The notes beneath the pieces are model-generated. The model made no database searches, had not been told where the DNA came from, and saw nothing but the letters and a program-made list of their open reading frames with translations. From a virus: 31,081 nt of DNA. A program made the position numbers and the translations under genes. The stretch covers positions 1-31,081 of the IMG/VR virus record IMGVR_UViG_3300042458_000141; one strand, 5' to 3'. Of this stretch, positions 1 to 31,081 are shown piece after piece; the stretch's first letter is position 1; the number at the start of each line of letters is the position of its first letter.

Positions 1-264
1 AAAAGACATAAAGTAAAAGAAACATTTGGTGATGAAGCGGAAGGAGCTTTAGTTATGCCTGATACAGATGTTTACTATTTACTAATAGGAGTAAAGTATC
101 TAACCCATAATACAATAGCTCATGAGATATTTCATGCTGCTGTTAGAGTGACAGAAGATAGAGGAGTGGTAGATGAAGAAGCACAAGCTTGGTTGGCAGG
201 ACACTTAACCTCTGTTACATATAAATTTATAGAAAAGAAGAAGTTAGTAATTAAACATGGCTGA
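1..264 (+). CDS. Zincin-like metalloprotease, C-terminal part (5' end outside window)
   Basis: The frame is open from the first base of the window, so the gene starts upstream. An ATG at 55 is an internal Met and is not needed as a start. The 87 visible codons end in TGA at 262-264. The protein contains HEIFH, the HExxH zinc-binding helix in which the Glu is the catalytic base. About 20 residues later comes a DEEAQAWLAGHLT segment, where one Glu is a good candidate for the third zinc ligand, as in gluzincins. Small zincins of this kind, with the pattern HE-x-x-HA then an EE-x-x-A helix, are common in tailed phages; their substrates are usually unknown. The stop overlaps the start of the muzzle gene by 8 bases, which suggests translational coupling and a late, virion-related role. 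It could be a maturation protease, but the sequence does not show that. The zinc site is clear; the function is not. Confidence 0.8.
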   Translation, partial: KRHKVKETFGDEAEGALVMPDTDVYYLLIGVKYLTHNTIAHEIFHAAVRVTEDRGVVDEEAQAWLAGHLTSVTYKFIEKKKLVIKHG

Positions 265-3200
265 AAAAGAATCACAAAATCCGGGAGCTGTTACCAACAC
301 CTTTAATAAAGGTATGGTAAAAGATTACAACGAGACCTTTGTAGGTGAGGGATTGTGGACGCATGCTCGTAATGTAGTTAATAACTCACATGATGGTCAG
401 ATTGGAGTTCTTGGTAATGAACCAGCTAACTTATATTGTGTTACTCTTCCTTATGCTTTAATTGGTACTGTACACTATGGTGGTGACCAATGGGTTGTTT
501 TTACAACAGATGATCTGAACTCTGAGATTGGAATATTTGATGAGTCTTCTTGCTCTTACACTAAAGTTATAAATGATCCATGTTTAAACTTTAAACGCAC
601 TCACCTTATTACTGGAGTTTGTCGTGAAAGATATGACTGTGAAAACTTATTATACTGGGATGATGGTTTAAACCCAACAAGAGTTTTAAACGTTAATGAT
701 GTTCCTTATGTTTGTACTACTACAGCATCAACTACTCAACCTTTTAAATATAGATTAATTGGAGCAACATGTAGTGCTAAAACTGCAACTACTACTCTTA
801 CATACAATGACATTAACTTTAATTCTCAAACTAAACATTTAGTAGATGGAGAGGTTTTTGAGTTTTTAACTTTTGATAAATCTGAGTTAATAAATATTAC
901 TAGTCGTAGCTGTACAGATGAACCATGTTATACTCATGTTATTAGTATTAGTATTCCTACTGCAGAACGTACTACTTATGAACTATGTCTTACTGATAAA
1001 CAAGCATATGACCAACAGTTTCCTGATGGATCACTTAATGCTTTAACTGTTATTAGTAAGAAGGTAGATTACAATGGTAATCCTATTCCTTGTGGTTGTG
1101 TTTCTCAAAGCACAACAACTGCTCCCTATAGATTAAATAATATCACAAGTTCAACTACATCTGATGGTCTCACTTGTAAAACTCCTGTTTGTTCTGATCG
1201 TTTAGATTGTGAAAAAATTAGACTAGCTTCTTTAGTAACACAACCTTGTCTTTCTTTACAAAAAGGAAAAGGAGCAGGTACGCTAGCCAATGGATCATAC
1301 CAAGTGGCATTAGCATACACTATAGATGGTGTTAGAGTTACAGACTATTTTGGTCTAAGTGAAGTTCAGTCTTTATTTAGTCATCAAAACTTATCTAGTT
1401 CTTTAGAAGTTACTATTACAGATATTGATAAAAACTTTGATGAGTTTGAGTTAGTTGTAATATCTAACATTAATCAACAAACTGTAGCTAAAAGTTTTGG
1501 TTTTTATTCTACTAGTCAAGGTGTAATCTATATTAGTACTGTAGGACCTGAGTTAATCACTGTACCTCTCACTTTTATTGTTCTAAGAACTGAACCAATT
1601 GAGAAGTCAGACGCTATGTATTCAGTTAATAACTATTTACTACGTGTCGGTGTATATAGTAAATTTAGATTTAACTATCAGAAACAAGCTAATGCCATTA
1701 AGTCAAAGTGGGTAGCTGTACAATATCCAGCAAACTACTATGTAAAAGGAGGAAATAATCCTTCTTTTATGAGAGATGAGCAGTATGCATTTTTTATAAG
1801 ATGGGTGTATAACACAGGTGAGCGTTCGGATTCTTATCATATTCCTGGTAGAGAAGCAACATCTTTAGAAACTTCTGCAATAGGTGGGGAAGATGCTTAT
1901 GAAATTGCAGACGGAGTTATTGTAGAACGTTGGCATGTAGAAAATACTGCCACTGTAGATTCAATAACTACTACTGCTTTACCAGATGGTGGTAAGATTA
2001 TTGCATCTGGTCAAATGGGTTATTGGGAATCTACAGAACTATATCCTGATAATAATCCTGAAGTTTGGGGTTCTTTATGTGGTAAACACATTAAGCATCA
2101 CAAGTTTCCTGACGCCACTGTAGACCCAGTTATTAATCATTATAACTCTAATGGTCAAAATATTGTAGTGTTAGGCGTAGAGTTTGAGAACATAACTCAT
2201 CCAATAGGTGCAGATGGAAAAACCATATCTTCTATAGTTGGATATGAAATACTTAGAGGAAGCAGAGAAGGTAATAAAACTATTCTAGCTACTGGTATAC
2301 TTAACAACATGCGTGAGTATGATATTCAAGAAGGTACTGCAGGTGTTCAAGGGCTATATCAAAACTATCCGTACAATGATCTAACTCCTGATTATTATTT
2401 AACATCTAATGAGAAATATATAAATCAAGGTTCTTTTGAAAATCGTAAAGGAGAACCCTTAAAGGATTATAGAAAAGATGTATTTTCTTTTCATAGTCCT
2501 GATACTAACTTTACTCAACCTTTTTTATCAGCACAAGAACTTAAAATATATGGTGAGGCTTACGGTAATTCACAGGGAGTATTTGAGATACCATGGAGGC
2601 ATCCTAAAAACAAGTTTATTGGTAAAGATGTAGAGTTTGTAAATAAAGCTTTACAAGTAATTAGAATCATTAATGCCTTATCTAGTGAGTTACCTCCTGG
2701 TGCTGTACAATTTACAGGTACTAATAAGCTTCCTGTTAATATTGATATTACTCCTGTAAAACCTGTACCAAAGAAAACAGTAGTAGGATCAATTCTTGGA
2801 GGTATAACAAATATATTTGCTCCTGGTGCTGGAGATATTGTATCAGGAATAGTTGATGGTATAGCTTTAGGTATTAACACAATTAGCTATGCAGCTCAAC
2901 TGCTTGTAGTAAAATACATACATACTGAAACTACTAGTGCTCAGATACAAATCTTAATTTACGGATTGATTCCTAAGCGTCAGTATGCTTTACAATATAA
3001 CTCACACGGGTTTTTTAATAAGTTCTCTGCTTCTAAAGAAGGAAATAGAAGAAGAAAGATTGATGATAGCTTATACATAAAAGGAAACGTACAAAGTTTT
3101 AATAATGATTTTAGAGTTAATAACTTATACAGAAGTAACTTTGTAATAGTTAAACTTGCTGATGGTAAGTTTATTGCTAATCCAGATAATGCAGATAATA

Positions 3201-9044: not shown

Positions 9045-9049
9045 AAGTT

Positions 9050-12336: not shown

Positions 12337-12356
12337 ATTTGTAATATATATATAAC
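12337..12356 (+). promoter_or_regulatory. Short TA-repeat leader before the next gene
   Basis: These 20 bases are all A/T except for one G and the final C (ATTTGTAATATATATATAAC) and lie directly before the ATG at 12357. There is no Shine-Dalgarno sequence, as is usual in Bacteroidota. The pattern TTGTA then an alternating TA tract then TAAC resembles the bases just upstream of the gene at 14335. It may be an A/T-rich ribosome entry leader or part of a promoter; only the similarity is observed. Confidence 0.3.
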
Positions 12357-14334: not shown

Positions 14335-17300
14335 ATGGCACAATACCTTCCTTATATACCAGAGACAATTCCTGAACCGGCTTTATACAAGCCGGACTTT
14401 AATTTCTTTGATAGAATGCTGCAAAGAAAGCAGTCTATGTTTGAACAAGGTGCAAGTAGAGTTAGATCTGCTTACACCTCTGTATTAAACGCACCTCTTT
14501 CAAATAAGAATAATATACCTCTTAGAGATCAGTATATTAAAGATGCTCAAGAACAGTTGACTAAGATATCGTCTTCTGATCTTTCTCTTATGGAAAACGT
14601 GAATGCAGCTGAGTCAATCTATGCTCCTTTTTGGCAAGACAAGTTTATAGTGCAAGATGCCGCTATGACTAAAGCTTATCAAACTGAAATGCAAAAGTAT
14701 GCTAGTTGGAAAGATGCAGCTAAACCTGAAGATCGTGAGAAGTATAATAACATAGGCATGATATATCTTCAGAATGGACTAAGCAAGTTACAAAATGCTG
14801 AAAGAACTCCTGAAGCTTTTGGTTCTGTAGAGATGCGTAAGGCTGAGCCGTTTACAAATATTGAATCTTATCTACAAAAAATGGCTACGGCTGATAAGCT
14901 TGAAATTAAATATGATAGCCCTGATGGACCATATTTAATAGAAACTAAAAACGGACAACGTTCTGAAAAGAAATATGCTACTTGGGCAACTGGTATGATA
15001 GGTAATAACTTTCAAGGACAGTTTATGGTAACAGGTACAGTAGAAAATGAAGAGCGTGCTAAAATATTAAAACGTAATAATCCTACTCTTACTGATGCAG
15101 ATGTTAAATCTTTAATTGCTAAAGATGCAATTTCTGAACTTAAACAAGGATTTACTAAAAGACATCAAGAAGTGGATGTTGAATTAGCTAGAGTAGATAG
15201 TTTATTAACTTCTATTGGTCAAACTGGTGGTCCAAATAATAAAGGCATGTTTGATAAACTTGTAGAACAGCGTGCAGAACTAACAGCAAATAAAGTTAGT
15301 ATCAATGAAGAGTATAAAGGTTTTGATCAAGATAAAGATAAATTGCTTGAATATGTAACTAGTGCACCTAATCAATATTTTAGTGTACTAGCTAAGCAAC
15401 GTCTTGTTAATAATTGGGCTATAGGTAAAGCTAACATTGATGAAAAACTTGTAAAGAAAAATGAAGGTTTTGTAGCAGCACAAGATTATGAGTTAAGAAG
15501 AGCTACTCATGAATTAGCTACTATAAAAGTTGCTTATGAACGTGAACAAGACTTATGGGAAAGAGCTAACCCAACAACTAATTCTAAAAGTAACACTACT
15601 AGAGATTCTAATGGTAATATTATTCCTACTTCTCCAGCTGAAGTAGTTCCTGGTATTGATGAAAGTAAATCTATAGTGTATAGTGGGGTATCAGGTACTG
15701 CAGTTGAAAGAACTGCTTCTAGTATATATAATATATTTAATAAACAACAAGAGGAAAGATTTACTATTGGTCATAATTTATTGTTTACTCAACAAGGTCT
15801 TCTTGGTCTTACTAAAGATTTAGGACTAAAACAAGGAGAGATAGCTGATGTAGCTACAGCTTTTCAAAGTGAGATTAATACTAAGTATAATCATACTTTT
15901 ACTAAAGATCAAGCAGCTGCATCTACTAGACTATCAGATCTTTTACTTGCTAGCCCAGCCGTTAAAGATGCAGGTATAACAAAAATAACTGGTCCAGGTA
16001 CAATGAAAAATGCTCTTATTGCATATTCAACTAACTATTTTGCAGAGAAGATTAAAAATAATATTCCGTTTACTGAAGAGGAAAAAGAAGCACAAAAAAA
16101 CATGGTAGCTTCTGTTAGAAATTTAGAAGTGTATAATGCTAATGAAGCAAAAAGAAAAGAGTTAATTAAAACTAATTTGCTAAATAATAAAGCTTTAAGT
16201 CATCTTGTAGTTGATACTTCATTAGGTGAAAAGGATTTAGTTAGTATTAGTGATCTTGAAAAAAAGTTTAAAGCTACAGATTTTGAAGATGAAGATGGTA
16301 ACAAAGTAAATATATCAGCTAAAGATTTAGCTACTGCTTATATGTCTGGTAACATGACAGCATATAGACCTGGTTTTTTTGCGTCTATTGCTGCCGCACA
16401 ATCAGCAAGAGCTGCCGGAACTGTTACATTTGGAAAGACAGTAACAATTGATGGTAAAAAATATAGTTCTCAAGGAACACTTACACCAAACATGTTATCT
16501 CCAAGTAAACCTTTTACTAATTATCCAAAAGGTTTAGAAGAACTTGAAAGTACTGTTTTGTCTTTAAATAAAACTTATACTTCATCTCAACAGTTGTCTA
16601 AAGATATTAATACTGCTCATTTAAATGTTGTGCCTAACTTATTAGATTATAAAAATCTTAGTGGTACACAGAGTAAAGAGTTTAAATTAAACTTTAAATC
16701 AACTAAAACAATGACTGATGGTGATAATGCAGCTCTTGCTGTATATCAAGCTACTCAACCTGGTAATATGGATATGGTTTATGATGAGAATGGACAAATA
16801 GTTCCTGATACTCATATTAAAGCAATGAATACTTTATTAAAAAATGAGAAAAACATAGAAGAGTATGTATCAGCTGAGTATATACCTGATGGAAAAGATG
16901 GTAAAAAAACTTTAAGACTTACTCTTAGCAAGGTTAGAGATGATGAAGGTAAAGATGGAAAGATTGCAGATGTTAATATTTCTGATTTAAAAACTCAGTA
17001 TAACTATACTCTTAAAGAAAATACTGCAACTTATTTAGATGGACTCTATAAAAGTGCAAGCTTTCAGATTTTTGAAGGTATTGTTAAAGGTGAGGAATTT
17101 AAATCAGATCCTATGCTAGAAGCTGCTGGTTTTAAATTTTCTATTATTCCTAACCTTAAAGGAGTTGGTGCTAACCCTTCATTTGTAACAATAGATGTTA
17201 ACTATAAGGCAAGAGTTAATAAAAAAGATCCACAAACAGGAGAATTAACTTCAAATATAGAAGATAAGTCTTACCTTAGTAGAATAAGCCTAAAAGGAGA

Positions 17301-17487
17301 TACAGCCAAAGGTCCAGATGAAATAGTTAATGCTGTGTATGATGTTCTTTACAATAATATATCAGAAAATAATAGATTAGAAAAGGAATATAAGTATTAC
17401 ATAGATAACAAAAACAAGACTGGCGGTGCTAGTTGGGACGCAAAAGCAGCTTTACAAGCAGCAGGACTATCTCATTTAATTAAGTAA
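14335..17487 (+). CDS. Large helical phage protein, probable virion cargo, function unknown
   Basis: This is a 1050-residue protein, mostly helical and charged by eye. Residues 4-120 carry a block that I recognise as frequent in large Bacteroidota-phage proteins of unknown function. Its pieces are YIPETIPEPALYKPDFNFFDRML, YTSVLNAPLSNKNNIPLRDQY, SSSDLSLMENVNAAESIYAPF and a following KAYQTEMQKYA. The segment around residues 275-410 (ELARVDSLLTSIG, LVEQRAELTANK, ELRRATHELATIKVAYERE) is likely coiled coil. The last 250 residues look more beta-rich (FVTIDVNYKARVNKK). There are almost no cysteines and no signal peptide, membrane segment or catalytic motif. It lies directly upstream of the giant polymerase gene with a 21-base gap. 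In crAss-like phages, proteins beside the polymerase gene are packaged in the head or tail, so a cargo role is inferred. An internal tail or ejection protein is the main alternative. Confidence 0.7.
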   Translation: MAQYLPYIPETIPEPALYKPDFNFFDRMLQRKQSMFEQGASRVRSAYTSVLNAPLSNKNNIPLRDQYIKDAQEQLTKISSSDLSLMENVNAAESIYAPFWQDKFIVQDAAMTKAYQTEMQKYASWKDAAKPEDREKYNNIGMIYLQNGLSKLQNAERTPEAFGSVEMRKAEPFTNIESYLQKMATADKLEIKYDSPDGPYLIETKNGQRSEKKYATWATGMIGNNFQGQFMVTGTVENEERAKILKRNNPTLTDADVKSLIAKDAISELKQGFTKRHQEVDVELARVDSLLTSIGQTGGPNNKGMFDKLVEQRAELTANKVSINEEYKGFDQDKDKLLEYVTSAPNQYFSVLAKQRLVNNWAIGKANIDEKLVKKNEGFVAAQDYELRRATHELATIKVAYEREQDLWERANPTTNSKSNTTRDSNGNIIPTSPAEVVPGIDESKSIVYSGVSGTAVERTASSIYNIFNKQQEERFTIGHNLLFTQQGLLGLTKDLGLKQGEIADVATAFQSEINTKYNHTFTKDQAAASTRLSDLLLASPAVKDAGITKITGPGTMKNALIAYSTNYFAEKIKNNIPFTEEEKEAQKNMVASVRNLEVYNANEAKRKELIKTNLLNNKALSHLVVDTSLGEKDLVSISDLEKKFKATDFEDEDGNKVNISAKDLATAYMSGNMTAYRPGFFASIAAAQSARAAGTVTFGKTVTIDGKKYSSQGTLTPNMLSPSKPFTNYPKGLEELESTVLSLNKTYTSSQQLSKDINTAHLNVVPNLLDYKNLSGTQSKEFKLNFKSTKTMTDGDNAALAVYQATQPGNMDMVYDENGQIVPDTHIKAMNTLLKNEKNIEEYVSAEYIPDGKDGKKTLRLTLSKVRDDEGKDGKIADVNISDLKTQYNYTLKENTATYLDGLYKSASFQIFEGIVKGEEFKSDPMLEAAGFKFSIIPNLKGVGANPSFVTIDVNYKARVNKKDPQTGELTSNIEDKSYLSRISLKGDTAKGPDEIVNAVYDVLYNNISENNRLEKEYKYYIDNKNKTGGASWDAKAALQAAGLSHLIK

Positions 17488-17508: not shown

Positions 17509-20500
17509 ATGGCACTAGAAACTGGTGTAATACCTCAAGAACTTCAAGGAGTTTATTCTCAAGATCCAATTCTTCCATTACCAGGACCTGTACAAACAAG
17601 TATGCTAGATTTATTAGCAGGTTCTGGTATGTATATGGGTGGTATTGATAACACACCTAGTAGAGATGTAGTACAGAGTGGTCTTGATGCATTTAGTCGA
17701 TCTCCTGTTAGTATGACTACATTGTCAACTCCAGTGTATTTTGATTATGATGCTGCTCAAGTAGACAGGTATAAAAGTTCAGACAAGTTTAGCACATTAG
17801 GTTTTGACCCATCAGGTCAAACTAATAATGAGTATAAATATGGAGCTTATCAAACTTGGGGTGATGTTTGGTCTAATGGTCTTTCTGGCATGTTCAGCTT
17901 AGCTGGAAATACTTATATAGAAGGATGGAAAGGCTGGGGTAATATGGCAGATGCTATATATAGTACTAGTTGGGCAGAAGCAGGACAAGATTTAATTGGT
18001 ACTCCAGAGTATTTATTAGAGCAGGATAAGATTACTAAAGATATCATGAATAAATATGCTATCTATTCTACTCCTGAATCTGAAGCAGGCATATTTAACC
18101 GTAAGTTTTTTGGTGATATGTTACAGCAATCAGGTTTTGCTGTAGGTGCTATTGGTCAATTCTTATCAGAAGAACTACTTACATGGGGTTTATCTACACA
18201 ATTTTCATTAGCTAAGCTTGGACTAAGAGCTTCTAGCTGGGCAGGAAGAATTGTTTCTCATGCAGACTTAGCCGATGATGCTGTTAGATTAGGTAATCCT
18301 ATTTGGAAAGCCCGTTCTGTATCAGAAGGTTTAGTAAATGGAGCTAGAAAATTTGTACCATTTGCAGACACTGTATATGATCTAAATAGATATGGTAAAG
18401 CTGGAGCAGGTATTGGTCAAATGGCATCAATTGGTATTGGTGGAGTGAGACGTACACTATCTGAAGCTAACATGGCTATGACAGAAGCTCGAATGGAAGC
18501 TGCTGGTACATATGGAGAGTTATACAATAAGTTGTATGACGAAGAACTTCGTAAAACAGGACAAGCTCCTAGTTTTGCTTTAGAAGAAAGCATTAAGTCT
18601 ACTGCAATGAATGCAGCTCAGGATAACTTTGGTGTTAACGTTGGTATCCTAATGCTAAGTAATAGACTACAGTTTGATAATATGTTTAGCCGCTTTGGTA
18701 CAGGTCGTGCTTTTTTTGGTACTACTGGTGAGTTTGCAGATGATGTAATAAAAGTTACTGGAAAATCTGCTGCTAAAGAAGCAGGTGATATTACAACTAA
18801 AACATATGCAAAAGGACGCCTTGGTACATTTGGTATTCTTGGTCAGATATCAGCAGACTTTGGAAAGAAAGCCGCTGCTTGGCAAGCTACTAAATCACTA
18901 GGACGTAATATATTTAAGTGGGAAACTGCAGAAGGATTACAAGAACTTTTTCAAGAAGGATCTAATAAAGGATTAAGTGATTACTATTATGATCTTTATC
19001 ATGGTAAGAAAGGATATGACTCAAAGCTAAATGCTATTGTAAGTAATATTGATAATCCTATTACAGATCTACAAGGAGCAAAAACCTTCTTAATGGGTGC
19101 TTTAACAGGTAGACTGTTATCTCCTATTAACTATGGTGTAGGGAAGGCTAAGTTATATGGTGCCACTACTGGAGTTCAACGTCAAGAACGTAAACAAAAA
19201 GTAGAAGAAGCCGTAACTTTAATTAATGCCTTCTATGAAAATCCTAAGATGTTCTTAAATGAGCATATTGCAAATGTTAAAGTACAGGATCGTGCTGCTC
19301 AAAGTATGGAAGAAGCAATACGTAACCGTGATCAGTATGAGTTTGTAAACCATAAAGATGGAGCTTTTGCTAAGATGATGTCAGCTTCTATGAAGACTGA
19401 TATGTTTAAAGCTATAACTACTACTATACGTGACTATGGTGAGACCTTTAATGATGAAGACTTTAAAGAAGCTTTTGGTTTAGATAAGACACAAGAAAAT
19501 ATCAGCTCTGTTAAAGAATACTTTAATAAGGTTGCTGATGAAACAGAGTCTTTCCATAAGACATGGAAACAACTTAAAGATAAGTTTGGTGATTCTGTGA
19601 TGCTTGATTTGTATGAGCAAGGTACTCCTGAGTATAAAGTGGGTCTTAGAGCTAAGCGTGCATTAGATGATGCTATTGAAATATTAGCTACTAATAATTA
19701 TAAAGCTACTCGTGCTGCAGAAAGAGCAGTAAAAATTCAATCTGACACTGCTGCAATACCTGTTATTGGTTCAAGTGTAGCTACTTCTTTTAGAGTGTTA
19801 GGTGCTATTAAGAATACGGAAACTGAAATAGAGTTACTTCAGAATGAGCTTACAGGTTTACAAGCTGTAGAGAAAAAAGATAAGGCTACCAAAGATCTTA
19901 TTAAGGTAAAGAAAGCTCAGCTTAAATCATTAGAAGACTGGAGAGATAACTATGAGTCTTTTAAAGACAAAGGTGTTAAACAGAAAAGAAAGTTTAACAA
20001 AGCTCGTAAGTCATTTGAATCTTATATGACCTCTAAAAACCAGGAGTCTGGTATTGATCAAGAAGTAAAACTTGATCAGATGGAAGAGATCTATGAGAAG
20101 ATGGTTGACTACATAGAGCTAAACAAAGATAGTAAAGATTACATTGATGCTTACAATACACTAGCTAACCCTATTACATTTGTAAAAGTGCATCAGCGTT
20201 TACTTGACGCCATGGATTCTGCTAAAGAAAGATTGAATGAAGAACATATTCAAGAAGCTATAGAAGCTATTTCAGGTAAAAAAACAGTTACACCTGAAGA
20301 TGGTAAAGACGATGAAGCTCCTGACTTTACTAAGTACATGATGGATGCTTATGACAACATGAAGTCATCTGAGCAAATTGGTGATATTACTTTTGAAGAA
20401 TGGCTTACTAGTCCTTCTGGTAAAACATTTACACAATTATATAACAAGAAGTATAATAAAACTGAATCTACTGATCAAGAAATAAAAGATCGTAGGGCTA

Positions 20501-23500
20501 GTCTTCAAGCACTTAAAGAAGAGTTTACTAATGCTACCGATATTACAAGTGATTTTGTTAATAATATTTTTAATAAAATATCTACTATACTAGGTGTTGA
20601 TATTACAGAACTAGAAAATGATTACAATACTTATAGTGCATCACTAGCTAAAGAATTAAAACAACTTTTTTCAGACTTAGGTATTGAAGATCCTGCAGCA
20701 GATCCAGATAGATCTACACTTGAAATAGATAAGTATATTGTTCCTAAGTTTATAGATAAACTAATAACTAACAATGGTCTTGGTAATAAAAAAGTTGAAA
20801 CTGTAGATCCAGCTAAAAATCTAGACATAATTGAACTTCCTAACAGAAAAGTTAAGATGGTTAAGCCTGTTTTACAGCAGGGAGAAACTTTAATTGATGA
20901 TGGCAAGGCTGGTATATTTATAGTTAAAGCACCTACTGGTCTATATCAAGTTTTTAATTCTGAACGTAATAATCCTCTTGGCGATAGTACATCTATTTCT
21001 TATACTACTAGAAATGAAGCATCTCTTGGTAGAGATGAGATGATAGCTAAGCTTGCTGAGCAAGATAAGAAAGACCGTAGTTTTTATGTGTTTGACGGTA
21101 AAGAGATACGTGCTGGCTTAGTAGTTACAGATAACCAAACTGGTAAAGAACTTGTAGTGATTACTAAAGGTGAGCCTTTTTACTCTGAGGATGATAAAGA
21201 AAAGAAAAATCCTAAGATTGAGATCACTCTTCTTAAAAATAGAAGAAAGTCAGATACTACTATAACTATTAGTAATTTTAATAACTATACTATTAAGCAA
21301 AAAACTGAAGCTTTAGAAACTGGAGAAGTTATAGATGCTAGTATGTTTAGACTTTTTCGTACTAATGAACTTAGTAGAATATATCCATATGTAGATAGAA
21401 GCTCAAATGAATCTGAGCAGGCGGCTCAAGTTAGACTAGATAATTTATTAAGAACAACTGATCCTAAAACTCTTGCTGCAGGGATTACTATAAAGATTAA
21501 AGAAAACTCTAAGCCAGCTACTACTAAAAATGTATCAGGTGATAAAAAAGTTAATCCTAATTTAGTTCAGTCTAGTGACAAGTATCAAATACAAATCTTA
21601 TTTAATGGTGCACCTATTGGCTTTTTAACCAACTATGATAATTTACGTTTTATTAATGAGAATGGTGTAAATGTACCAATGTCTAATTTATCTATAGACC
21701 AGTTTAGAAAGATATTTGATAGTCAAGGTAGAGATACTAAAGATATGATGAATGCTTTTAAGGCTAACTTTGAATCATCAAAAGCTGCATACTTTGCTTT
21801 AGCTAAATACATTAAGCCAGGACAAGAAATAGAAATACCTGCAGATGAAGTGGCTAAGATTGTAAGCTTCACTATAGGAACTGGAGAATCTTCTTATGTA
21901 AAAGAGGATGAAGTAGGTACTCCTTTTAAAAATTTACAGCATAACACAATTAATGGATTCTACTATATTATAGATAGAAGTAGACGTTATGGTAATGGTT
22001 TTACTTTTCAAACAACAGAAACAGCTATTACTAACGCTACTAACAAAGATCGTAAAGAGATAGAAAAACAAATAGCTTTAGTTAGAGCAGTTAGAGATAC
22101 TACAGAACAACTTGGTAGATACATGGCTGTAGTAAAACTACCAAATGGACGTATACATTTTGTTGAGTTGGCTACTGATCCAATGACTAATGATAAGTTA
22201 ACTGATCTTGTTACAAAACTTAATGATCGTTCTACTGAATCTAAGTCAAAGAACGTAGAAGTAGGTAAAGATGAACAAAATAAAGATACACCAATACGTA
22301 AAAATATTGATTTTAATCAGGAACTAAACTCAGAAATTGTTTCTAGTTTATTTCTTTCAGTACCTCAAAGTGCTAAAGGTACTTATATAGATTTTGCATT
22401 AAACGATACTGGTAGTCTTGAACTTACCTTTCATAAAAAAGTAGGAGATAAAAATATTCGTAGACAGATCTATGTTTATGGAAAAACTAAATTTGATCCT
22501 GTTAACTTTAAAGATCCAGATGACATGCTTGAGCAGATAAATGCTGCTATAGAAAAGCATGATAAAGACTATGCTAAAAATGATTCTCATAAGATAGGAT
22601 TTAAACTAACTAAGCAAAACTTTAAAGTGTCTATTCCTGATGCTGTTTCTGTTTCTCAGTTAGAAAATAATCAAATAGAACTTAGATCATCTGTATATAA
22701 TACTATTGTTAAAAACTTACCACTTACTGTTAAAGCAGTAGCTGTTGATCCTGGTACTCTTCCAGCAGCACCTCAAACTTTAGAACCTACAACTGCTCAG
22801 CCAGCATCTAAAAATAAAGAATTAACTGAAGCTGAAATACAAGCTATTCGTGATAAAGTATCAGGAAAGACTACTACCACTACAGAAACTCCTTCTGCTG
22901 AGCCAACTCAAAGACCAGTTAACACTGAACTTGAGAAAGCTAAGATGGAAGTAGACACTCTTATAAGAGATAAGGAACTTGAAGTGGTAAAACGTAGAGA
23001 TGAAAAGATTGCTAATGGTATGCGTCCTTCTTCTGCTATGATGGAAGCTGATAGTGAAGCTTCTTCTATGTTTAACAAAAAGATTAAAGAAGGTAAGGAT
23101 AAAATTAATCAGATTAAAAATGCTGGTAGAAATACTGCACTAAAAATAACTGATCGTCCTACATTTGATCAAGGTAGTGTAGTTAATATTGATGACTTTA
23201 AAAAGTATATTAGTCGTATACTTGGAGATAAGGTTTCTGTAGAAGAGCTTGGCTTTATGGCTACGGCTCTTAAGGATGGTCAAATTACAGTTGGTAAGTT
23301 CTTGACATATCTTGAAGTACTTCAGAATGGCAGAACAGCTGTTAAAGGTCGTATAGAAGTAGGTGCAGAAACTGGCTTTAAATATCATGAAGCTTTTCAT
23401 GCTGTCTTCCGTTTAATGCTTACTGATAAGCAGATAGATAAGCTATTAGCTTATACTAAGATGGAGATTAACAAAAAAGGTATTGATATAAAAGCAGAAA

Positions 23501-26500
23501 TGCAGAAAATGCGTGAACTGCATACCATCTATACTGAAATGACTGAGCAAGAACTGGAAGAAAGATTCTATGAAGAATACATGGCTGACCAGTTTGAAGA
23601 CTTTAAAGGCAACCAAAAAGAAAGTAAAACTCTTCCAGGTATTCGTGGATTCTTCCAAAAACTTTTAGATTTTATCACAAGCTTGTTTAATGGTTTCTCT
23701 CGTAATCAGCTTACAAACTTATTTCGTGAAATAGATAGAGGAGCTTATAGAAATAATAAAGTAAGAGAAAATAGATTCACTAAACCAGACGCACTAAGTA
23801 TAAGTGAACCTGTTCTTAAAGCTATTAAGGTGGGAGAGATGGATGTACTAGATGAAAATGGTATGTACATTACTATTCCTAGATATCTTTCACAACAAGA
23901 AGGAGATCAACTTGCTAGTAATATAGCATCTAAGTATCACTTAAGAGTATTAAATGGTACTGGTCAGTATAATAAGATGAAGGTTCTTCAGGATATCTTT
24001 GCTGATTTTATGGAACTATATGATATCAATGGTTCTAAAAAAGAGTTTTATCTTAATGAGATTGATAATCTTTATGAACAAGATCCAGATCTTGCTAGAC
24101 AATACCAGAATAAACTACAACAGAAATATCAAATTTTTAAAGATACTGAAAATAGAAAGTCTCTATCTGAAGCTGTTGACACTCATTTAAAAATAATGGG
24201 GTATCAACAAGAGCTAGAAGATGATGAACTTGTATCTATGGAAGATGAGTTTGGTTCTAAAGTTACTACTGATAGTTGGAAAGAGACTCACTCTATTGGT
24301 GGGTTTGGTAGTCTAAGTAAATTCTTACGTCAATACATTGCTGCTACTACTTATATGGTAGATAAAGATGAATTTGGAAACACTGAATTTGTAAATGGAG
24401 AACCATTAATGCAAGCAGTAAATGCTAACTTAGTTTATAATGGTGTACTAAAAGCTGTTTCTAATATCACAGATCAAAATCAGTTTGTAAATAGACTACA
24501 ACAACTACGTTCTGAAAGTACAGAAACTGGTAAGTTCTTAAATAAGTTCTTTAATGATGTTGATCTAAATTTAGATCCTACTACTGGAGGATTTTCTGTA
24601 AACAACTCTACACAATCTACATTGTTTCAGATGGTTATTAAAGGATTTCAGCAGTACACTGTTGACTATATCTTTATTAACAAAGACATTCGTCAGAGTA
24701 AGAAAGTTTCTGCTCTTATGATTGCAAATAGATTAGGTGTAGCTAAGACTCAGTTTACACAATGGCAGAATGCTTATGTACAAGTATATGAAGATCAAAT
24801 TCTTAAGCTTAAAACTATTGAAGAAAAGAAAGCTTTTGCTAAAGAACAAACTGGTGCTTTTCAAGATTTAACTACATACTTAGACCCTGGTCAATACATT
24901 TCAGATGAAGAAATGTACATTGAAACTCAGCGTATTAGTAATGAACTAAAAGAAAATCTTGGTATTTCTTTATCACCGTTATTCTTAAAGTTTTCTATTT
25001 CTGCTGCTAAAGATCCAGGTATTAGAACTGAAAGCCAAAGAAAGCTTGCAGAATCATATTCTGATGTAACTGGTATTACTATAGACTCTATTAGACAGAT
25101 TGTTAAATCTATTCAAGCTTTAGAAAATCCATTTGCCAAAAACATTGATAGTCTTAAGAAAGACGATACTGATATTGTTCTTCTTGGGGAAGAGACTGCT
25201 GAATCTGATCTTTCAGATGACATGGGAGAAGGAGGTAACGTTAGTCGTATTAATGAATTAGCTAAAGGTAATGCTATCTTTGATGAGACTGTAAGTACCA
25301 CTTCTCATATGAATGCAGAAGGAGAGTTGGTGTATAGTCATCAGCTTCCTACATTCCATTTGGTTAAGGTGAACTCATTAAATGATCCTTCGGTTTTAGA
25401 TGAATTATCACAAGATGATTTTCTTTCTGGAAACATCTTACTAGACTCTCCACAGTTTCGTAGTTTAATTGGTGACTTAAAAGTAGAAAGAATAGAAGGA
25501 ATGAAAAGTTCTATTCTTAATGAAAATGCAGAAGGTGGTTATACTGAAGATAAGACTATTACTTCTAATCAGAACAAGGGTATAACATATGGTAAATTTT
25601 CTGATCGTGAGTTTATTATATCACTTCTTGAACTGTATAAATACAATAAAAAAGTAAAAGGAGAAAATAGTGTATTCTATACATCACAACATTTAGTAAG
25701 AGTAATTGAAGCTTCTAATACAGCAGATACAATATCCTTACCGGTTATTAAAGCTGTAACTACAGATGCTGATAATAACACAAAGCTTTCTACAGAAGCT
25801 TTAGAATACCTATCTAAAGAAATAGCTAGAGAGTTTGCTCGTATTCAAAAAGTAAGTATGGAAATCCGTACTAAGATTTTTGAAGAAGGAGAGATTGAAG
25901 GATATCATTATGCAGTAGATCAAAATGGCTTTAGAGATTCTAAGAAAAAGCCTAGAGGATTAAAGTTTTACAAGATGGCAAACATGCTAGGAAAAGAACT
26001 AGCTGAAGAACTTGAAACTGATTCTATAAATCCAGCTTTTGATCTAAGTACAAAAGCAGCCAAGATTAATGAACGTATCCAAGAATACTGGTCAGAAAGA
26101 ATGGATGAGTTTGTAGATACACTTGACAATCTTGGTGTTATAACTATCAGTACTACTGCTGAAACAGGTGAAACTATAGATAACAATTTAGTTGATGACT
26201 TTATTAATACTGGTTTTACAACTAAAGGAGATGATAAAAAAGATGTAGCTGACGAAAGAAAGAATGATAAGCTAAACCTTAAGCCAGGATCTGTTAGACA
26301 TAATCTTGCACAAATTTTAGTTAATGATTATATCAATACATTAGCTTTCAATCAGTTACTATATGGTGATGAAGCTAAAGCATTTAAAGATGAGATTGAT
26401 CAAGTAAAACGTGCTAGAGGTGCAAACGGTTCTGGTGCTAGTTTAGAGTCTATTATAATAAATCCTGACTTAGGCATTACTGAACAGTTTACTAAGGCTT

Positions 26501-29500
26501 ATATGCTAACTTTTACCGATCCTAAATATAAAGCTAAATATGCAGGTGGATTAAAAGATAAAGCAGATGCCCAGTCTTACTTTACAGCAAAAGGTATGAG
26601 GTATACATTATTTGGTCTTGGTCAACTTACTCCTCAAAGAGCTAAGATTCTTGATAAGATTGAAGCTGGTATAAAGCTTACAGCTGATGAAATATTTAAT
26701 AAAGATAGTGGGTTAAAAGCAATGGAAGGAATGTTTAACTCATATAAGCTTGTTTATTTTGATGGTCCTCAATATATTAAGACATCAACTGTAATGCTTA
26801 CTAAAGAGTTTACTTCTATGCAAGTAGATGGTGAATGGGTTTCTCGTCCTGGTTATGAAGAACTTCATGATATGAGAGAAAGAATGGAAACATTTGAGTC
26901 ACAAAACTCTACTGTTACTTTTTCAGCTCCTAAGTCTGCTAGTAAAGGTGTTAAGAAGAATATATTTGATTCTAAACTAGGATTTAAAAATGCTTCAAAC
27001 GATAACTTTATAGAGCAAAGTACTAAGTACTGGAGACTTCAGTTGGTTAACCCTTCTAATAAAATCTCTATAACTGATCCTACACAAGCTAAGCAGATCA
27101 TTATTGCTGAGCAAGATGATAGTCTTATAGTAGACTTTATGGGAACTGAGATGTCTGTAGGTGATCTTAAAAAACTTTACTTAGAAGATACAGCTCAACG
27201 TGTAAAAAATAATTATTTTAGAGCTCGTAATGAAATATTTACTATAGAAAAAGGTTTTGAAGAACTAGGTAAATCTATTGATCAAGATAAAGTATCGGCT
27301 AAACTTGAGAACTTTCAGAAGAAAGCAATAGAAACTCTTAGATCTTCTGGTGCAGATAGTCAACTATTAGAGTTCTTTTCTTTAGACGAGAATACTGGTA
27401 AGCCTAAATACAATCTTAACAGTACACTTACTCTTGAAAAATACACTCAATTATTCTTAGCTTATTTCTCTAAAGGAGTAATGAGTGAAAAATCACCAGG
27501 TCACTCTGTAGCTTTGATGTCTAACTATGGCGTTAAAGTGGTTAAAGTGTTTACTGGTAGATATGATGAAGACGGTGTACCTATTGGTAAAGTTGTTCCA
27601 CGTTCTATAGTAGAAGCAAGTCCTAAGAAGTATATGACTGCTAAACGTTGGGATAATGATATTGACCGTACATTTACAGGACTTAAAGAAGGTGATATTT
27701 ATGTTGATGACTTACGCCACAATGTGCCAGAGTATGATAATAATGGAAAGATTATAGGTCGTTATGCAGAGTTTATGATGCCTCCTCACTTTATGGAGGA
27801 TATGAACTTAAAACCTGGTGACCCAATTCCAGATTGGATTGCTAAAATATTTGGTGTACGTATTCCTTCACAAGATAAGCACTCTTTTATTTCTTTAAGA
27901 CTAGTAGACTTTATGCCGGCTTATTATGGTTCTACTGCAGTATTCCCACATGAACTAATTGAGATCTCTGGAGCTGACTTTGACATTGATAAACTATATA
28001 TGCATATTGCAGATACGTATACCCGTGGTGGTAAACGTATAGCATATGGTACAGCTAAAACAAAAGAAGGCAAGTTTGAAGAGTTTGTTCGTTGGAACTC
28101 TAAAAATAATAAAGCATTCCGTGAAGAGTTAAATCGTCTAAAAGAAATAGACCCTACTTATCAAGGTGTTCTAAAGAGAATAGCAGATCTTAAAAAACTA
28201 GAAAAAGGTATAGATAAAGCATTTGATGATACTCAAATGTCTGATCAATCTATCAAAGAAGGCTTATCTACAGCTGTTCAAGCGTCACGTTTAGTAGACG
28301 CAGTAAGACAGAAGCTTACAGGTATGCCAGATCTTAATGAGTTTTCTGATCAATATGGTCTTGTAGAAGATACATATTATATAAGAGATCTTCAGGATCA
28401 AATTGATGCTCTTGATAAGAAAGAAGAAAGAGATTTTATTCTTTCTATGGGGATTGAGTGGTATGAAACCTTTAAAGATCTTAATAATAAACTAAGAGAT
28501 GTAGAAACAAGACTCATATCTGATGCTTTAAAGTTAGTAGATCTTCCAACTTCTATTAGTAAGTTGGCAGAATCTAAAACTGAATTAAACAATGGTGTTT
28601 TAAATAATAAGATACTTAGCCAAAAGATTGCTCTTCTTAACAATGAACACATTACTAAAGGTGGTAATAAAGCTATTGGTTTTGAGGTGGCATCAGTAAA
28701 AGCTTTAAGTGACTTGTTAGATCCCACTGTAACAGATAACCTTCTTGATATACTATCAACTGGTATAGATGAAAATGGTGAGAAGACCTATCCAAAAGGT
28801 TTAAAAGAAATTTTGTTAGAAGGTGGTTCTGATGTAGATAGTTTAATAGGAAAGCTTAAAGCTTTTAAAAATAATAAAGAAGGTTCTCGAAATATTGGAC
28901 CTGCTGTTAATGCAATGCTTACATATGCTGTACTTAACAACTTTGATATTCAACTTAGAGATAATGCTATTGATCCAAAGTCTGGTGAGCTTGTGAAGAT
29001 GTTTAAGTTTAAGCTTAATGGACATATATTCTCTGGATATGGTAATACTCGTAGCTACAATGCAACTACAGGTAAGTATGATTCTGACCAAAGGATCTTT
29101 AATACTATATCTACTTTAGTATCTGCTATGACAGATAACGCTAAAGAACGTTTGGCTGCTCGTCTTGGTCTTAATATTGAAGCTGTTGGTCATGTATCTA
29201 ACATGGTAGCTCAAGGTGTTCCTCTTAAATCTGCTATACTATTTATGTTACAGCCAGTTGTAAGAGAGTATTTTGAGATGACTAAAATAGCTGCTAATAA
29301 TGTTAAAACTGCATCTGAAAATGAGATATACAAGTCTCAGATTTCTAAAGAGTTATTAAGTAAATACAGATCTGAAGCAGGTGAAAACTATGTTAAAGAA
29401 GATCTTACTGATGAAATTCTTTTAGATAACATAAAGAACAATGGATCAAGTGTTATATACCAGGCTTCTGTACTAGAAGACTTTATAGGTATTATAAACC

Positions 29501-31081
29501 AAAGTAAATACTATAGCTCTGTTGCACAAGTATTAAAGTTAACTAAAGGTTTAGGTACAAGTTTTGAAGAGTATGACAAGATCAATGACAACATTGACTC
29601 ATTAGGTTTGAGAGTTAAAGATAATAAAGCTTTTGAAAAGTATATTGATCCTATTATTGGTATGCATCCTCCATTTGACTTACGTCAAACATTTATGGGA
29701 TATGATGAAAACAAACCATATCATCATTTTATTGAAGGATATATTAAGATAGCTGATCAAATTTCTCAGATATCTAAAGGTATGTTCTTAGAAAGAACTC
29801 CAGTGTTTAAACGTATTGAGCAGATAGTAAAAGATAATTTATCTATACGTATTTCCCTTAGAGAAAGATTTAATACTGAGCTTAAAAAAGATTTGATTTC
29901 TTATCTATCTATTAAAGCATACAGGAAATATCTTGCTGATAACGGAAGAAGTGGTACCTTATCTACAATGACTAATGCTTTAATATATGATCAACTAGCA
30001 AAATCCAAAGGAGAAGAGTTCATGGATATAGTAGATATCATGAGAACTATCAGAGAAAAGCTTCCTAATAACTATTTAGCTAATCAATTTTTGAATGTAG
30101 TTTCAACTAGTATATATAATGCTAGTGGTGAGATGGCTCTTAATCCTAAAAATAGAGATGGTATAAACAAAATTGAAGCTAATACATGGGCTAAGCTTAG
30201 TGACTATCAAGTAGAAAAACTAAGAGATGCTTTTGTAGATATCTATCAATCTGAGATAGATTTTGATGGTTCAGGTAGAAATGGTAGAGATATGGCTAAT
30301 GCTTTATTTAACTACCTTGTTGTTAAAGATGGTGCACAGTTTAGAAGTGGATCTTTTATTAGATACATTCCTAACTTTATATTTACTGATTTCTTATCTA
30401 GTACTGGTGTTGCCAATGATGTTCTTAAGCTTTCATCTATAGCAGATAATACAGAAGAGCTAGATGAAAAGTATAAGCAGACTTTTGGTGTAACATCAAT
30501 TGATCTTTTTAACGAGTTTATGGAAAATTATGTTACACATATAGGTAATTCATACTTTGTTAAAAAAATGCCTATTGCTAATGAAACAAAGTTTGATCCC
30601 ACTGGTAATAAAGCTGTAGATGATTTTCAACCAGCATCACTTGTAGAAACTAAAGAAGGTATATCTATTAATATATTTAGAGGTGCTCGTGATAGTAAAG
30701 CAAAGTTTAAAACATATGAAGAGTCATTAGAATATGAAGCAGGACTTACATACATTAGTGATATAGAATATCTAGAGTATCTTAGCTTCTTATCTGAAGA
30801 AGAGAGAGCTGCTATCAATGAGGCTAAAGCTAAAACTAAAAAGTTTAACCCTGATGAAAAAGCTAGGTTTAAGAAAAACATGCAGTCATTAAGAGACAAA
30901 GGCTTTAATACAGGTGCTACTGGTGAGGTTATGTTCCCTTATATTATTAAAGTTAGTTCTGGAGAAAGGTTTAAAAGTGATACTTATTATATACTTAAAT
31001 CTGTACAAAAAGCTAAGAAAAATACAAAGAAAGGAACAGAGTCTAAAAGACTTATACAAAAAGGACAGACTGTAGCTCTAG
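17509..31081 (+). CDS. Giant virion RNA polymerase polyprotein with embedded zincin domain (3' end outside window)
   Basis: One frame runs unbroken from the ATG at 17509 to the window edge, giving 4524 complete codons and no stop. The start follows TATCATATAAAGATATATTC, without a Shine-Dalgarno site. Residues 205-315 include weakly hydrophobic Gly-rich stretches (SGFAVGAIGQFLSEELLTWG; AGAGIGQMASIGIGG). Residues 472-490 hold an acidic ETAEGLQELFQEG helix. Residues 770-822 are likely coiled coil. Residues 1745-1804 form a Pro/Thr linker. Residues 1885-2030 are a zincin domain with H1960-EAF-H1964. Residues 2929-2975 (NQLLYGDEAKAF, then VKRARGANGSG) match a conserved block of crAss-like polymerases. 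Residues 3451-3502 hold RIPSQDKHS, FPHELIEISG and D3490-F-D3492-I-D3494, the catalytic magnesium motif of double-psi beta-barrel RNA polymerases. In crAss-like phages this enzyme is packaged and ejected to transcribe early genes. Its length is far above single-domain versions, implying fusion with other virion modules. Confidence 0.92.
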   Translation, partial: MALETGVIPQELQGVYSQDPILPLPGPVQTSMLDLLAGSGMYMGGIDNTPSRDVVQSGLDAFSRSPVSMTTLSTPVYFDYDAAQVDRYKSSDKFSTLGFDPSGQTNNEYKYGAYQTWGDVWSNGLSGMFSLAGNTYIEGWKGWGNMADAIYSTSWAEAGQDLIGTPEYLLEQDKITKDIMNKYAIYSTPESEAGIFNRKFFGDMLQQSGFAVGAIGQFLSEELLTWGLSTQFSLAKLGLRASSWAGRIVSHADLADDAVRLGNPIWKARSVSEGLVNGARKFVPFADTVYDLNRYGKAGAGIGQMASIGIGGVRRTLSEANMAMTEARMEAAGTYGELYNKLYDEELRKTGQAPSFALEESIKSTAMNAAQDNFGVNVGILMLSNRLQFDNMFSRFGTGRAFFGTTGEFADDVIKVTGKSAAKEAGDITTKTYAKGRLGTFGILGQISADFGKKAAAWQATKSLGRNIFKWETAEGLQELFQEGSNKGLSDYYYDLYHGKKGYDSKLNAIVSNIDNPITDLQGAKTFLMGALTGRLLSPINYGVGKAKLYGATTGVQRQERKQKVEEAVTLINAFYENPKMFLNEHIANVKVQDRAAQSMEEAIRNRDQYEFVNHKDGAFAKMMSASMKTDMFKAITTTIRDYGETFNDEDFKEAFGLDKTQENISSVKEYFNKVADETESFHKTWKQLKDKFGDSVMLDLYEQGTPEYKVGLRAKRALDDAIEILATNNYKATRAAERAVKIQSDTAAIPVIGSSVATSFRVLGAIKNTETEIELLQNELTGLQAVEKKDKATKDLIKVKKAQLKSLEDWRDNYESFKDKGVKQKRKFNKARKSFESYMTSKNQESGIDQEVKLDQMEEIYEKMVDYIELNKDSKDYIDAYNTLANPITFVKVHQRLLDAMDSAKERLNEEHIQEAIEAISGKKTVTPEDGKDDEAPDFTKYMMDAYDNMKSSEQIGDITFEEWLTSPSGKTFTQLYNKKYNKTESTDQEIKDRRASLQALKEEFTNATDITSDFVNNIFNKISTILGVDITELENDYNTYSASLAKELKQLFSDLGIEDPAADPDRSTLEIDKYIVPKFIDKLITNNGLGNKKVETVDPAKNLDIIELPNRKVKMVKPVLQQGETLIDDGKAGIFIVKAPTGLYQVFNSERNNPLGDSTSISYTTRNEASLGRDEMIAKLAEQDKKDRSFYVFDGKEIRAGLVVTDNQTGKELVVITKGEPFYSEDDKEKKNPKIEITLLKNRRKSDTTITISNFNNYTIKQKTEALETGEVIDASMFRLFRTNELSRIYPYVDRSSNESEQAAQVRLDNLLRTTDPKTLAAGITIKIKENSKPATTKNVSGDKKVNPNLVQSSDKYQIQILFNGAPIGFLTNYDNLRFINENGVNVPMSNLSIDQFRKIFDSQGRDTKDMMNAFKANFESSKAAYFALAKYIKPGQEIEIPADEVAKIVSFTIGTGESSYVKEDEVGTPFKNLQHNTINGFYYIIDRSRRYGNGFTFQTTETAITNATNKDRKEIEKQIALVRAVRDTTEQLGRYMAVVKLPNGRIHFVELATDPMTNDKLTDLVTKLNDRSTESKSKNVEVGKDEQNKDTPIRKNIDFNQELNSEIVSSLFLSVPQSAKGTYIDFALNDTGSLELTFHKKVGDKNIRRQIYVYGKTKFDPVNFKDPDDMLEQINAAIEKHDKDYAKNDSHKIGFKLTKQNFKVSIPDAVSVSQLENNQIELRSSVYNTIVKNLPLTVKAVAVDPGTLPAAPQTLEPTTAQPASKNKELTEAEIQAIRDKVSGKTTTTTETPSAEPTQRPVNTELEKAKMEVDTLIRDKELEVVKRRDEKIANGMRPSSAMMEADSEASSMFNKKIKEGKDKINQIKNAGRNTALKITDRPTFDQGSVVNIDDFKKYISRILGDKVSVEELGFMATALKDGQITVGKFLTYLEVLQNGRTAVKGRIEVGAETGFKYHEAFHAVFRLMLTDKQIDKLLAYTKMEINKKGIDIKAEMQKMRELHTIYTEMTEQELEERFYEEYMADQFEDFKGNQKESKTLPGIRGFFQKLLDFITSLFNGFSRNQLTNLFREIDRGAYRNNKVRENRFTKPDALSISEPVLKAIKVGEMDVLDENGMYITIPRYLSQQEGDQLASNIASKYHLRVLNGTGQYNKMKVLQDIFADFMELYDINGSKKEFYLNEIDNLYEQDPDLARQYQNKLQQKYQIFKDTENRKSLSEAVDTHLKIMGYQQELEDDELVSMEDEFGSKVTTDSWKETHSIGGFGSLSKFLRQYIAATTYMVDKDEFGNTEFVNGEPLMQAVNANLVYNGVLKAVSNITDQNQFVNRLQQLRSESTETGKFLNKFFNDVDLNLDPTTGGFSVNNSTQSTLFQMVIKGFQQYTVDYIFINKDIRQSKKVSALMIANRLGVAKTQFTQWQNAYVQVYEDQILKLKTIEEKKAFAKEQTGAFQDLTTYLDPGQYISDEEMYIETQRISNELKENLGISLSPLFLKFSISAAKDPGIRTESQRKLAESYSDVTGITIDSIRQIVKSIQALENPFAKNIDSLKKDDTDIVLLGEETAESDLSDDMGEGGNVSRINELAKGNAIFDETVSTTSHMNAEGELVYSHQLPTFHLVKVNSLNDPSVLDELSQDDFLSGNILLDSPQFRSLIGDLKVERIEGMKSSILNENAEGGYTEDKTITSNQNKGITYGKFSDREFIISLLELYKYNKKVKGENSVFYTSQHLVRVIEASNTADTISLPVIKAVTTDADNNTKLSTEALEYLSKEIAREFARIQKVSMEIRTKIFEEGEIEGYHYAVDQNGFRDSKKKPRGLKFYKMANMLGKELAEELETDSINPAFDLSTKAAKINERIQEYWSERMDEFVDTLDNLGVITISTTAETGETIDNNLVDDFINTGFTTKGDDKKDVADERKNDKLNLKPGSVRHNLAQILVNDYINTLAFNQLLYGDEAKAFKDEIDQVKRARGANGSGASLESIIINPDLGITEQFTKAYMLTFTDPKYKAKYAGGLKDKADAQSYFTAKGMRYTLFGLGQLTPQRAKILDKIEAGIKLTADEIFNKDSGLKAMEGMFNSYKLVYFDGPQYIKTSTVMLTKEFTSMQVDGEWVSRPGYEELHDMRERMETFESQNSTVTFSAPKSASKGVKKNIFDSKLGFKNASNDNFIEQSTKYWRLQLVNPSNKISITDPTQAKQIIIAEQDDSLIVDFMGTEMSVGDLKKLYLEDTAQRVKNNYFRARNEIFTIEKGFEELGKSIDQDKVSAKLENFQKKAIETLRSSGADSQLLEFFSLDENTGKPKYNLNSTLTLEKYTQLFLAYFSKGVMSEKSPGHSVALMSNYGVKVVKVFTGRYDEDGVPIGKVVPRSIVEASPKKYMTAKRWDNDIDRTFTGLKEGDIYVDDLRHNVPEYDNNGKIIGRYAEFMMPPHFMEDMNLKPGDPIPDWIAKIFGVRIPSQDKHSFISLRLVDFMPAYYGSTAVFPHELIEISGADFDIDKLYMHIADTYTRGGKRIAYGTAKTKEGKFEEFVRWNSKNNKAFREELNRLKEIDPTYQGVLKRIADLKKLEKGIDKAFDDTQMSDQSIKEGLSTAVQASRLVDAVRQKLTGMPDLNEFSDQYGLVEDTYYIRDLQDQIDALDKKEERDFILSMGIEWYETFKDLNNKLRDVETRLISDALKLVDLPTSISKLAESKTELNNGVLNNKILSQKIALLNNEHITKGGNKAIGFEVASVKALSDLLDPTVTDNLLDILSTGIDENGEKTYPKGLKEILLEGGSDVDSLIGKLKAFKNNKEGSRNIGPAVNAMLTYAVLNNFDIQLRDNAIDPKSGELVKMFKFKLNGHIFSGYGNTRSYNATTGKYDSDQRIFNTISTLVSAMTDNAKERLAARLGLNIEAVGHVSNMVAQGVPLKSAILFMLQPVVREYFEMTKIAANNVKTASENEIYKSQISKELLSKYRSEAGENYVKEDLTDEILLDNIKNNGSSVIYQASVLEDFIGIINQSKYYSSVAQVLKLTKGLGTSFEEYDKINDNIDSLGLRVKDNKAFEKYIDPIIGMHPPFDLRQTFMGYDENKPYHHFIEGYIKIADQISQISKGMFLERTPVFKRIEQIVKDNLSIRISLRERFNTELKKDLISYLSIKAYRKYLADNGRSGTLSTMTNALIYDQLAKSKGEEFMDIVDIMRTIREKLPNNYLANQFLNVVSTSIYNASGEMALNPKNRDGINKIEANTWAKLSDYQVEKLRDAFVDIYQSEIDFDGSGRNGRDMANALFNYLVVKDGAQFRSGSFIRYIPNFIFTDFLSSTGVANDVLKLSSIADNTEELDEKYKQTFGVTSIDLFNEFMENYVTHIGNSYFVKKMPIANETKFDPTGNKAVDDFQPASLVETKEGISINIFRGARDSKAKFKTYEESLEYEAGLTYISDIEYLEYLSFLSEEERAAINEAKAKTKKFNPDEKARFKKNMQSLRDKGFNTGATGEVMFPYIIKVSSGERFKSDTYYILKSVQKAKKNTKKGTESKRLIQKGQTVAL
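23161..23604 (+). other. Zincin metalloprotease domain inside the giant polyprotein
   Basis: These bases encode residues 1885-2032 of the giant protein. The first part (FDQGSVVNIDDFKKYISRIL, ITVGKFLTYLEVL) is a beta/alpha lead-in. GFKYHEAFHAVFR follows, with H1960 and H1964 as zinc ligands and E1961 as the base. About 58 residues later, ELEERFYEEYMADQFEDF offers E2022 or E2023 as the third ligand, as in gluzincins. The domain sits directly after a Pro/Thr linker (1745-1804) and a charged helical stretch, so it could fold independently. The small protease at 1-264 has a related HExxHA helix. The motif set suggests an active enzyme; the substrate is unknown. Confidence 0.82.
27853..28008 (+). 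other. RNA polymerase catalytic double-psi beta-barrel segment (DFDID)
   Basis: These bases encode residues 3449-3500. The order R-I-P...H-S...V-D-F...P-x-E-L...S-G-A-D-F-D-I-D-K-L-Y-x-H parallels the beta-prime barrel of cellular RNA polymerases, where R-x-P...H...S precedes NADFDGD-x-x-x-x-H. The three Asp residues (codons within 27976-27990) should coordinate magnesium. The variant DFDID, rather than DFDGD, is the form I associate with crAss-like virion polymerases. An upstream EKSPGHSVALMSN segment (residues 3327-3339) may belong to the partner barrel, but its catalytic lysines were not assigned. Confidence 0.92.

Follow-up and report, generated by a model that had tools for sequence, protein, structure and literature searches.

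Analysis of a 31,081-nucleotide viral record (IMG/VR IMGVR_UViG_3300042458_000141, the whole of which is referred to here as the window) revealed a giant open reading frame that is the fused form of a crAss-like virion-packed, ejected cargo chain, its function being predicted from that of its relatives. The frame joins a 47-type (zincin) module to a 50-type virion RNA polymerase (RNAP) module, and in the relatives a 49-type subunit follows. Comparison of these loci revealed a rule of cysteine placement: where the chain is broken into separate genes, at the 47|50 and 50|49 breaks, the upstream protein ends with a cysteine and the downstream protein starts with one. The giant ORF itself is not unprecedented; the terminal-cysteine pattern around the chain looks new. 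We propose that reversible head-to-tail disulfides between these termini probably replace gene fusion in the three-module chain.

A fused 47-50 frame open at the contig end

Reading from the ATG at 17509 meets no stop up to base 31080, as the original prediction had held, and the frame spans 43.7% of the window (about 44% had been claimed). With the base composition of the window, the chance of so long a stop-free run is ~10^-165. The start is backed by the aligned relatives and by the end of the previous gene at 17487. The stop cannot be read in the window because the window is the whole IMG/VR record. The frame had been called invisible to gene callers, which is true of tools that skip open-ended ORFs and not of an ORF list that allows open ends, where it appears.

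Three IMG/VR relatives (L002, L003 and L004) contain the same frame in a collinear, frameshift-free alignment, with identities mostly of 40-90% (lowest 28%). The frame is complete with a stop in L004 (a 127.7-kb contig; 4791 aa) and L003 (4734 aa), and its 5' end is cut off in L002. Compared with these relatives, the last ~200-270 residues of the giant protein fall outside the window. All three (3/3) carry a separate gene directly after the giant ORF, encoding a 1518-aa protein that matches crAss001 gp49 (99.8%, E 1e-28 by profile alignment). A contig that stops inside an ORF might suggest an assembly artefact fusing two genes, but the recurrence of the collinear frame in three independent contigs, and of the same fusion in Suoliviridae genomes already deposited as well as in dozens of further lineages, leaves that explanation with next to no probability.

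Table 1. Features of the window (coordinates in nucleotides; residues numbered from the ATG at 17509)
Feature	Position	Strand	Basis or remark
1677-aa virion structural protein (22 Cys)	257..5290	+	Upstream structural block; PHROG 37948 E 1.6e-65, 15100 E 1.4e-40
1050-aa protein without cysteine	14335..17487	+	Upstream of giant ORF; placed like crAss001 gp45/46
Giant open frame, 47-type (zincin) and 50-type (virion RNAP) fusion	17509..31080	+	4524 codons, open at contig end
47-type module, aa ~1-2144	17509..23940	+	Boundary approximate
Region in common with the Leptolyngbya phage Lbo-JY46 1552-aa protein, aa 319-682	18463..19554	+	
HEAFH zincin motif, aa 1960-1964	23386..23400	+	
EEYMAD, aa 2022-2027	23572-23589	+	After HEAFH
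Virion RNA polymerase module, aa 2589-3992	25273..29484	+	hhalign to crAss001 gp50/Dulem/phi14:2 RNAP
RNAP core, aa 2900-3700	26206..28608	+	Invariant K3080, K3091, DxDxD; query for profile and fold searches
DFDID catalytic motif, aa 3490-3494	27976..27990	+	Motif and invariant columns

The polymerase module aligns with the RNAPs of crAss001 (gp50), phi14:2 and Dulem over 1135 columns (hhalign 99.0%, E 3.2e-18). A profile of 41 relatives headed by the window's core matched the solved phi14:2 virion RNAP (6vr4_A) at E 1e-196, so that the polymerase match on which the original prediction depended was found, and the fold search agrees. The best Foldseek match of a predicted model of the core (pLDDT 64.5, a moderate quality) is again 6vr4_A (E 3.2e-19), followed by QDE-1, an RNA-interference polymerase (E 3.2e-3). 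The giant ORF combines DFDxD and the profile match with a double-psi-barrel RNAP fold, the last read from this model of pLDDT 64.5. The family profile was needed: a phmmer search that used the window sequence alone gave nothing in the PDB, and searches of Pfam and PHROGs with the giant ORF gave no usable match. Packaging of the RNAP in the virion and transcription of early genes by it are known for phi14:2 and crAss001 only (PMC7886860, PMC10172136).

The 47-type module resembles gp47 most clearly near its C-terminus, where residues 1948-2080 match the C-terminal zincin of crAss001 gp47 and a Dulem protein of 2474 aa (hhalign 96.5%, E 7.8e-10) and where the HExxH motif lies; weak collinear matches to gp47-type proteins extend N-terminal of residue 1948. 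The region in common with Lbo-JY46 was detected by tblastn (E 4e-8) and by hhalign (95.9%, E 6.2e-9). Profile and fold searches of the PDB with the zincin region, whose model is of low confidence, found no match. The original prediction of polymerase and protease modules in one frame thus stands for the polymerase (DFDID at residue 3490) and for the HEAFH motif (residue 1960) of a putative protease.

Alternatively, the giant ORF product might be a polyprotein, cleaved by the zincin it contains at the junction of the 47 and 50 modules; in favour of this, HEAFH lies close to that boundary and is retained in 38 of the 43 lineages with the window's arrangement. However, the zincin persists in lineages that encode the modules separately, HExxH is absent from two of the four zincin-typed one-ORF chains, the boundary region is well conserved with no gappy linker, and no fold match was found for the zincin region. 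We considered self-processing and do not favour it; it seems improbable.

The frame had been judged extreme even for phage proteins, an assessment that is not supported: RNAP genes of crAss-like phages reach ~6000 aa (PMC10136315, a review), and Suoliviridae (delta) carry the same 47-50 fusion, followed by a separate 49-type gene with terminal cysteines at that break. Their fusion ORFs (cr50_1, 4774 aa; cr55_1, 4551 aa; cr114_1, 4272 aa) each contain HEAxH and DFDxD, are only ~20% identical to that of the window, and bear the annotations hypothetical protein or DNA helicase. The window lies outside the delta phages on the RNAP tree and is not placed in the Suoliviridae; it clusters with L004 alone, and the next rows are distant environmental lineages. 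The genes for TerL and MCP lie outside the window. TerL, read from the relative G001, matched 127 phages at ~20-28% identity, mostly crAss-like with some Flavobacterium phages.

Other known chains divide the modules differently. The phi14:2 virion RNAP (6vr4; 2180 aa) and crAss001 gp50 share the window's core residues, DFDxD, invariant lysines and fold, but each is a separate protein with a cysteine at both termini, whereas the window's RNAP is fused behind a 47-type module. The three modules are three separate genes in phi14:2 and also in crAss001, where gp47 is on the opposite strand. p-crAssphage has the same modules in the same order as gp45 (RNAP-associated, zincin) and gp44, the latter a 50-49 fusion in contrast to the 47-50 fusion of the window. 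The N4 virion RNAP (3500 aa) is likewise a giant ejected polymerase with an HExxH domain (PMC12633501); it differs in being a single large RNAP gene in another phage family.

Upstream of the giant ORF, the 1050-aa protein has no detectable homology to crAss001 gp45/46 and, by analogy of position, is probably an ejected cargo protein. Gly-rich stretches, which had been assigned to the giant chain, occur mainly in the upstream ORFs. The ORFs of 5298-14276 are rich in short YGG/DGG motifs, and two neighbouring ORFs within 9050-12336 finish with a similar tag, EGDV..LTxEEI...GGxxxExx.

Terminal cysteines at the gene breaks

Cysteine is absent from all 4524 residues of the giant ORF; the remaining ORFs of the window have 5.6 per 1000. 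Because the window stops before the predicted terminal cysteine, the rule is read for it from the relatives. The sole cysteine of the complete giant protein in the relatives lies three residues before the end (residue 4788 of 4791 in L004), and that of the 1518-aa protein that follows the giant ORF in the relatives is residue 3. In the 127.7-kb relative these two are the only ORFs, among 59 of at least 200 aa, with cysteines exclusively at the ends.

Named phages show the same pairs at each of their gene breaks. In phi14:2 (KC821624 numbering), gp78 ends with C1797, its last residue, facing C3 of gp77, and gp77 C2179 faces C3 of gp76; in crAss001 the pairs are gp47 C2339/gp50 C5 and gp50 C2404/gp49 C5. 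Cysteine pairs at gene breaks also occur in Dulem virus 41, cr3_1, cr11_1, p-crAss, cr50_1, cr55_1 and cr114_1. Placement varies, from residue 2 to 9 of the downstream protein (usually 3-6) and from 0 to 8 residues from the upstream end, and many downstream N-termini have short common motifs such as CPN or CIN. In p-crAssphage (L009), KP06_gp47 (5225-7798; 857 aa) contains one cysteine only, residue 856; its partner was not found, the following proteins having no N-terminal cysteine except the RNAP.

We extended the comparison to 150 further loci, with ORFs called mechanically, modules typed with profile HMMs, and a cysteine counted when within 10 residues of a terminus. Among 111 non-redundant lineages, the 50|49 break has a cysteine at the RNAP end in 73/73 and at the 49 start in 73/73, and the 47|50 break at 61 of 64 upstream and 60 of 63 downstream ends; at the non-break ends the counts are 0/24, 0/18, 0/71 and 0/29. 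With HMMs and rules frozen beforehand, a test set of 65 new lineages from two more scans gave 51/51 and 51/51 at the 50|49 break, 22/24 and 22/24 at the 47|50 break, and 0/21, 0/17, 0/49 and 0/8 at the non-break ends. Combined (176 lineages), the 50|49 break has its cysteine in 124/124 on each side, and the 47|50 break in 83/85 upstream and 82/84 downstream once three loci are omitted whose 'upstream 47' is a fragment of a cargo gene; with these three included, the 47|50 counts are 83/88 and 82/87. None of the 237 outer ends has one (0/45, 0/35, 0/120, 0/37). As to the exceptions, the last cysteine of L145 lies 32 residues before the end, L320 is probably a fused ORF disrupted by a frameshift and L059 probably a start miscall.

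The interior cysteine density of the chain proteins in the 111 lineages (1.16 per 1000) predicts a cysteine near ~1.2% of termini by chance. The remaining ORFs in the surveyed loci have 9.28 cysteines per 1000, ~8x more. Cysteine is not strictly forbidden in the chain, since gut lineages have interior cysteines: lineages near crAss001 and p-crAss (L029-L064, L151-L176) have many, up to 27 per RNAP ORF, and most of L066-L149 have none. This difference might reflect how oxygenated each habitat is.

The ejection proteins of T7, P22 and N4 are also nearly free of cysteine (none in the 3008 aa checked of the N4 virion RNAP), as would be expected if cysteine is generally kept out of ejected proteins. 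No terminal cysteine pairs were seen in these T7, P22 and N4 proteins; T7 gp14 carries Cys2 on its own.

Breaks that move, vanish or become unlinked

The cysteines follow the breaks. Complete one-ORF chains (47+50+49) in seven lineages, of 4627-5639 aa, have zero cysteines (the one-ORF loci are L066, L068, L071, L086, L096, L197, L295, L325 and L269). Where the break falls before the zincin (L075, L087, L093, L100, L103) or deeper in the 47 module (L058, L062, L072), the pair shifts with it, and where it splits the RNAP itself, ~90 aa N-terminal of the catalytic core (L070, L094), the pair is found at the cut. This two-piece polymerase occupies 9818-15022 in L070 and 9818-14809 in L094. An ORF of 157-160 aa, of one family (ending in LLFDQELGK or similar), lies between the 47 and RNAP genes in L058, L062, L070 and L094.

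Breaks of another kind lack the cysteines. In L028, L059, L108, L146, L148 and L149 the RNAP is interrupted at DFDxD by intron-type breaks with no cysteine, most of these insertions holding an ORF of ~215-230 aa. By their position the insertions look like homing-endonuclease-like introns, in which case the break would be mended in the RNA.

Physical separation of the genes does not abolish the pair, which is kept when gp47 is encoded on the other strand (crAss001, L028, L059), across ~5 kb of unrelated genes (L054), across an inserted gene that has no terminal cysteine (L062) and across an unrelated gene (L291). This bears on whether the pattern could arise at the nucleotide level, as a side effect of the signals for translation where genes meet, as the position of the cysteine codons near starts and stops might suggest. 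That reading is already contradicted, because unlinked genes, on opposite strands or kilobases apart (L054, L291), keep the pattern. Moreover, TGT and TGC both occur (240:39 near termini versus 1087:255 elsewhere), and the other ORFs of the loci lack the pattern despite their higher cysteine content (terminal cysteines at 13/136 N-termini and 18/182 C-termini). We regard a translational origin as very improbable.

On the RNAP tree, which is a quick tree, break state equals cysteine state in 86/86 and 105/105 rows, with at least 7 and at least 8 changes needed. Well-supported independent contrasts (5 and 7) point in the same direction in 12/12 cases; the sign tests (p 0.06 and 0.016) are modest because few branches qualify.

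The cyanophage Lbo-JY46 of Leptolyngbya (L019, PP438436; 19155-32061) has a 1552-aa 47-type protein, in which cysteine occurs only as the final residue, and a 2748-aa 49-type protein whose only cysteine is residue 4. No DFDxD RNAP core was found in this phage, and a scan of viral contigs with its gp49-type region returned no relative. From these sequences, a stapled pair may occur without a polymerase.

Proposed disulfide staples between ejected cargo proteins

The arrangement of the cysteines points to a chain in which the 47-type zincin, the 50-type RNAP and the 49-type subunit would always be linked in one linear order. When the modules share a gene, the link would be a peptide bond; when they are separately encoded, the terminal cysteine of the upstream protein and the initial cysteine of the downstream protein are most likely joined by a disulfide, head to tail. 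We infer from the cysteine rule that such disulfides would form after assembly or release, that the chain would be pulled through the tail as a single thread or train, and that the reducing cytoplasm of the new host would cut the staples, so that the subunits are released, refold and transcribe the early genes. Gene fusion would make the link permanent, which these phages evidently tolerate. We consider it fairly likely, if somewhat less so than the staples themselves, that the whole phage order delivers its RNAP as one covalent train, coupled by peptide bonds or by redox-cleavable disulfides and largely stripped of its other cysteines, which would leave only the correct ends able to join.

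Phages assemble in a reducing cytoplasm, which counts against staples; they would therefore need to be made at a late stage or once the cell has lysed. Two annotated thioredoxins, gp39 and a truncated gp37, lie at 30615-31882 of p-crAssphage (L009), and are relevant if staples need making or cutting.

A terminal cysteine pair might instead act without a disulfide, through a shared metal ion, a non-covalent docking site or another thiol link. Any pairwise use of the thiols would give the same pattern, and the short N-terminal motifs (CPN, CIN) are common to many of the proteins. Yet two cysteines alone make a poor metal site, their exact position varies, no further conserved ligand was noticed, and inter-subunit disulfides are known in the same kind of virion (PMC10172136). 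We judge these possibilities unlikely, though the least so of the alternatives, and retain the disulfide.

The crAss001 virion contains gp47, gp49 and gp50, and it has inter-subunit disulfides in the tail and portal vertex (PMC10172136). Those bonds join virion proteins and stabilise the shell, whereas the proposed staples would couple ejected cargo end to end. In the openly readable literature we found mention of shell disulfides only and none of this cysteine pattern in crAss-like RNAP or cargo proteins, so priority is uncertain. Virion inter-subunit disulfides and crAss-like RNAPs are each already known; the staple, if confirmed, would be a new coupling of ejected proteins. Covalent coupling of separately encoded ejected proteins that are freed by host reduction would, if true, be a delivery mechanism not previously described in the literature searched.

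crAss-like phages rank among the human gut's most abundant viruses. How they eject protein in megadalton amounts, and in the right order, through a tail less than 50 Å wide is a standing question; in crAss001, tail barrel constrictions of <50 Å demand partial unfolding of the cargo (PMC10172136). A head-to-tail covalent train would simply explain the ordered ejection, the giant fused genes and the separate genes with matching ends. For annotators, the cysteine rule tells which proteins belong to the chain and which broken genes are real.
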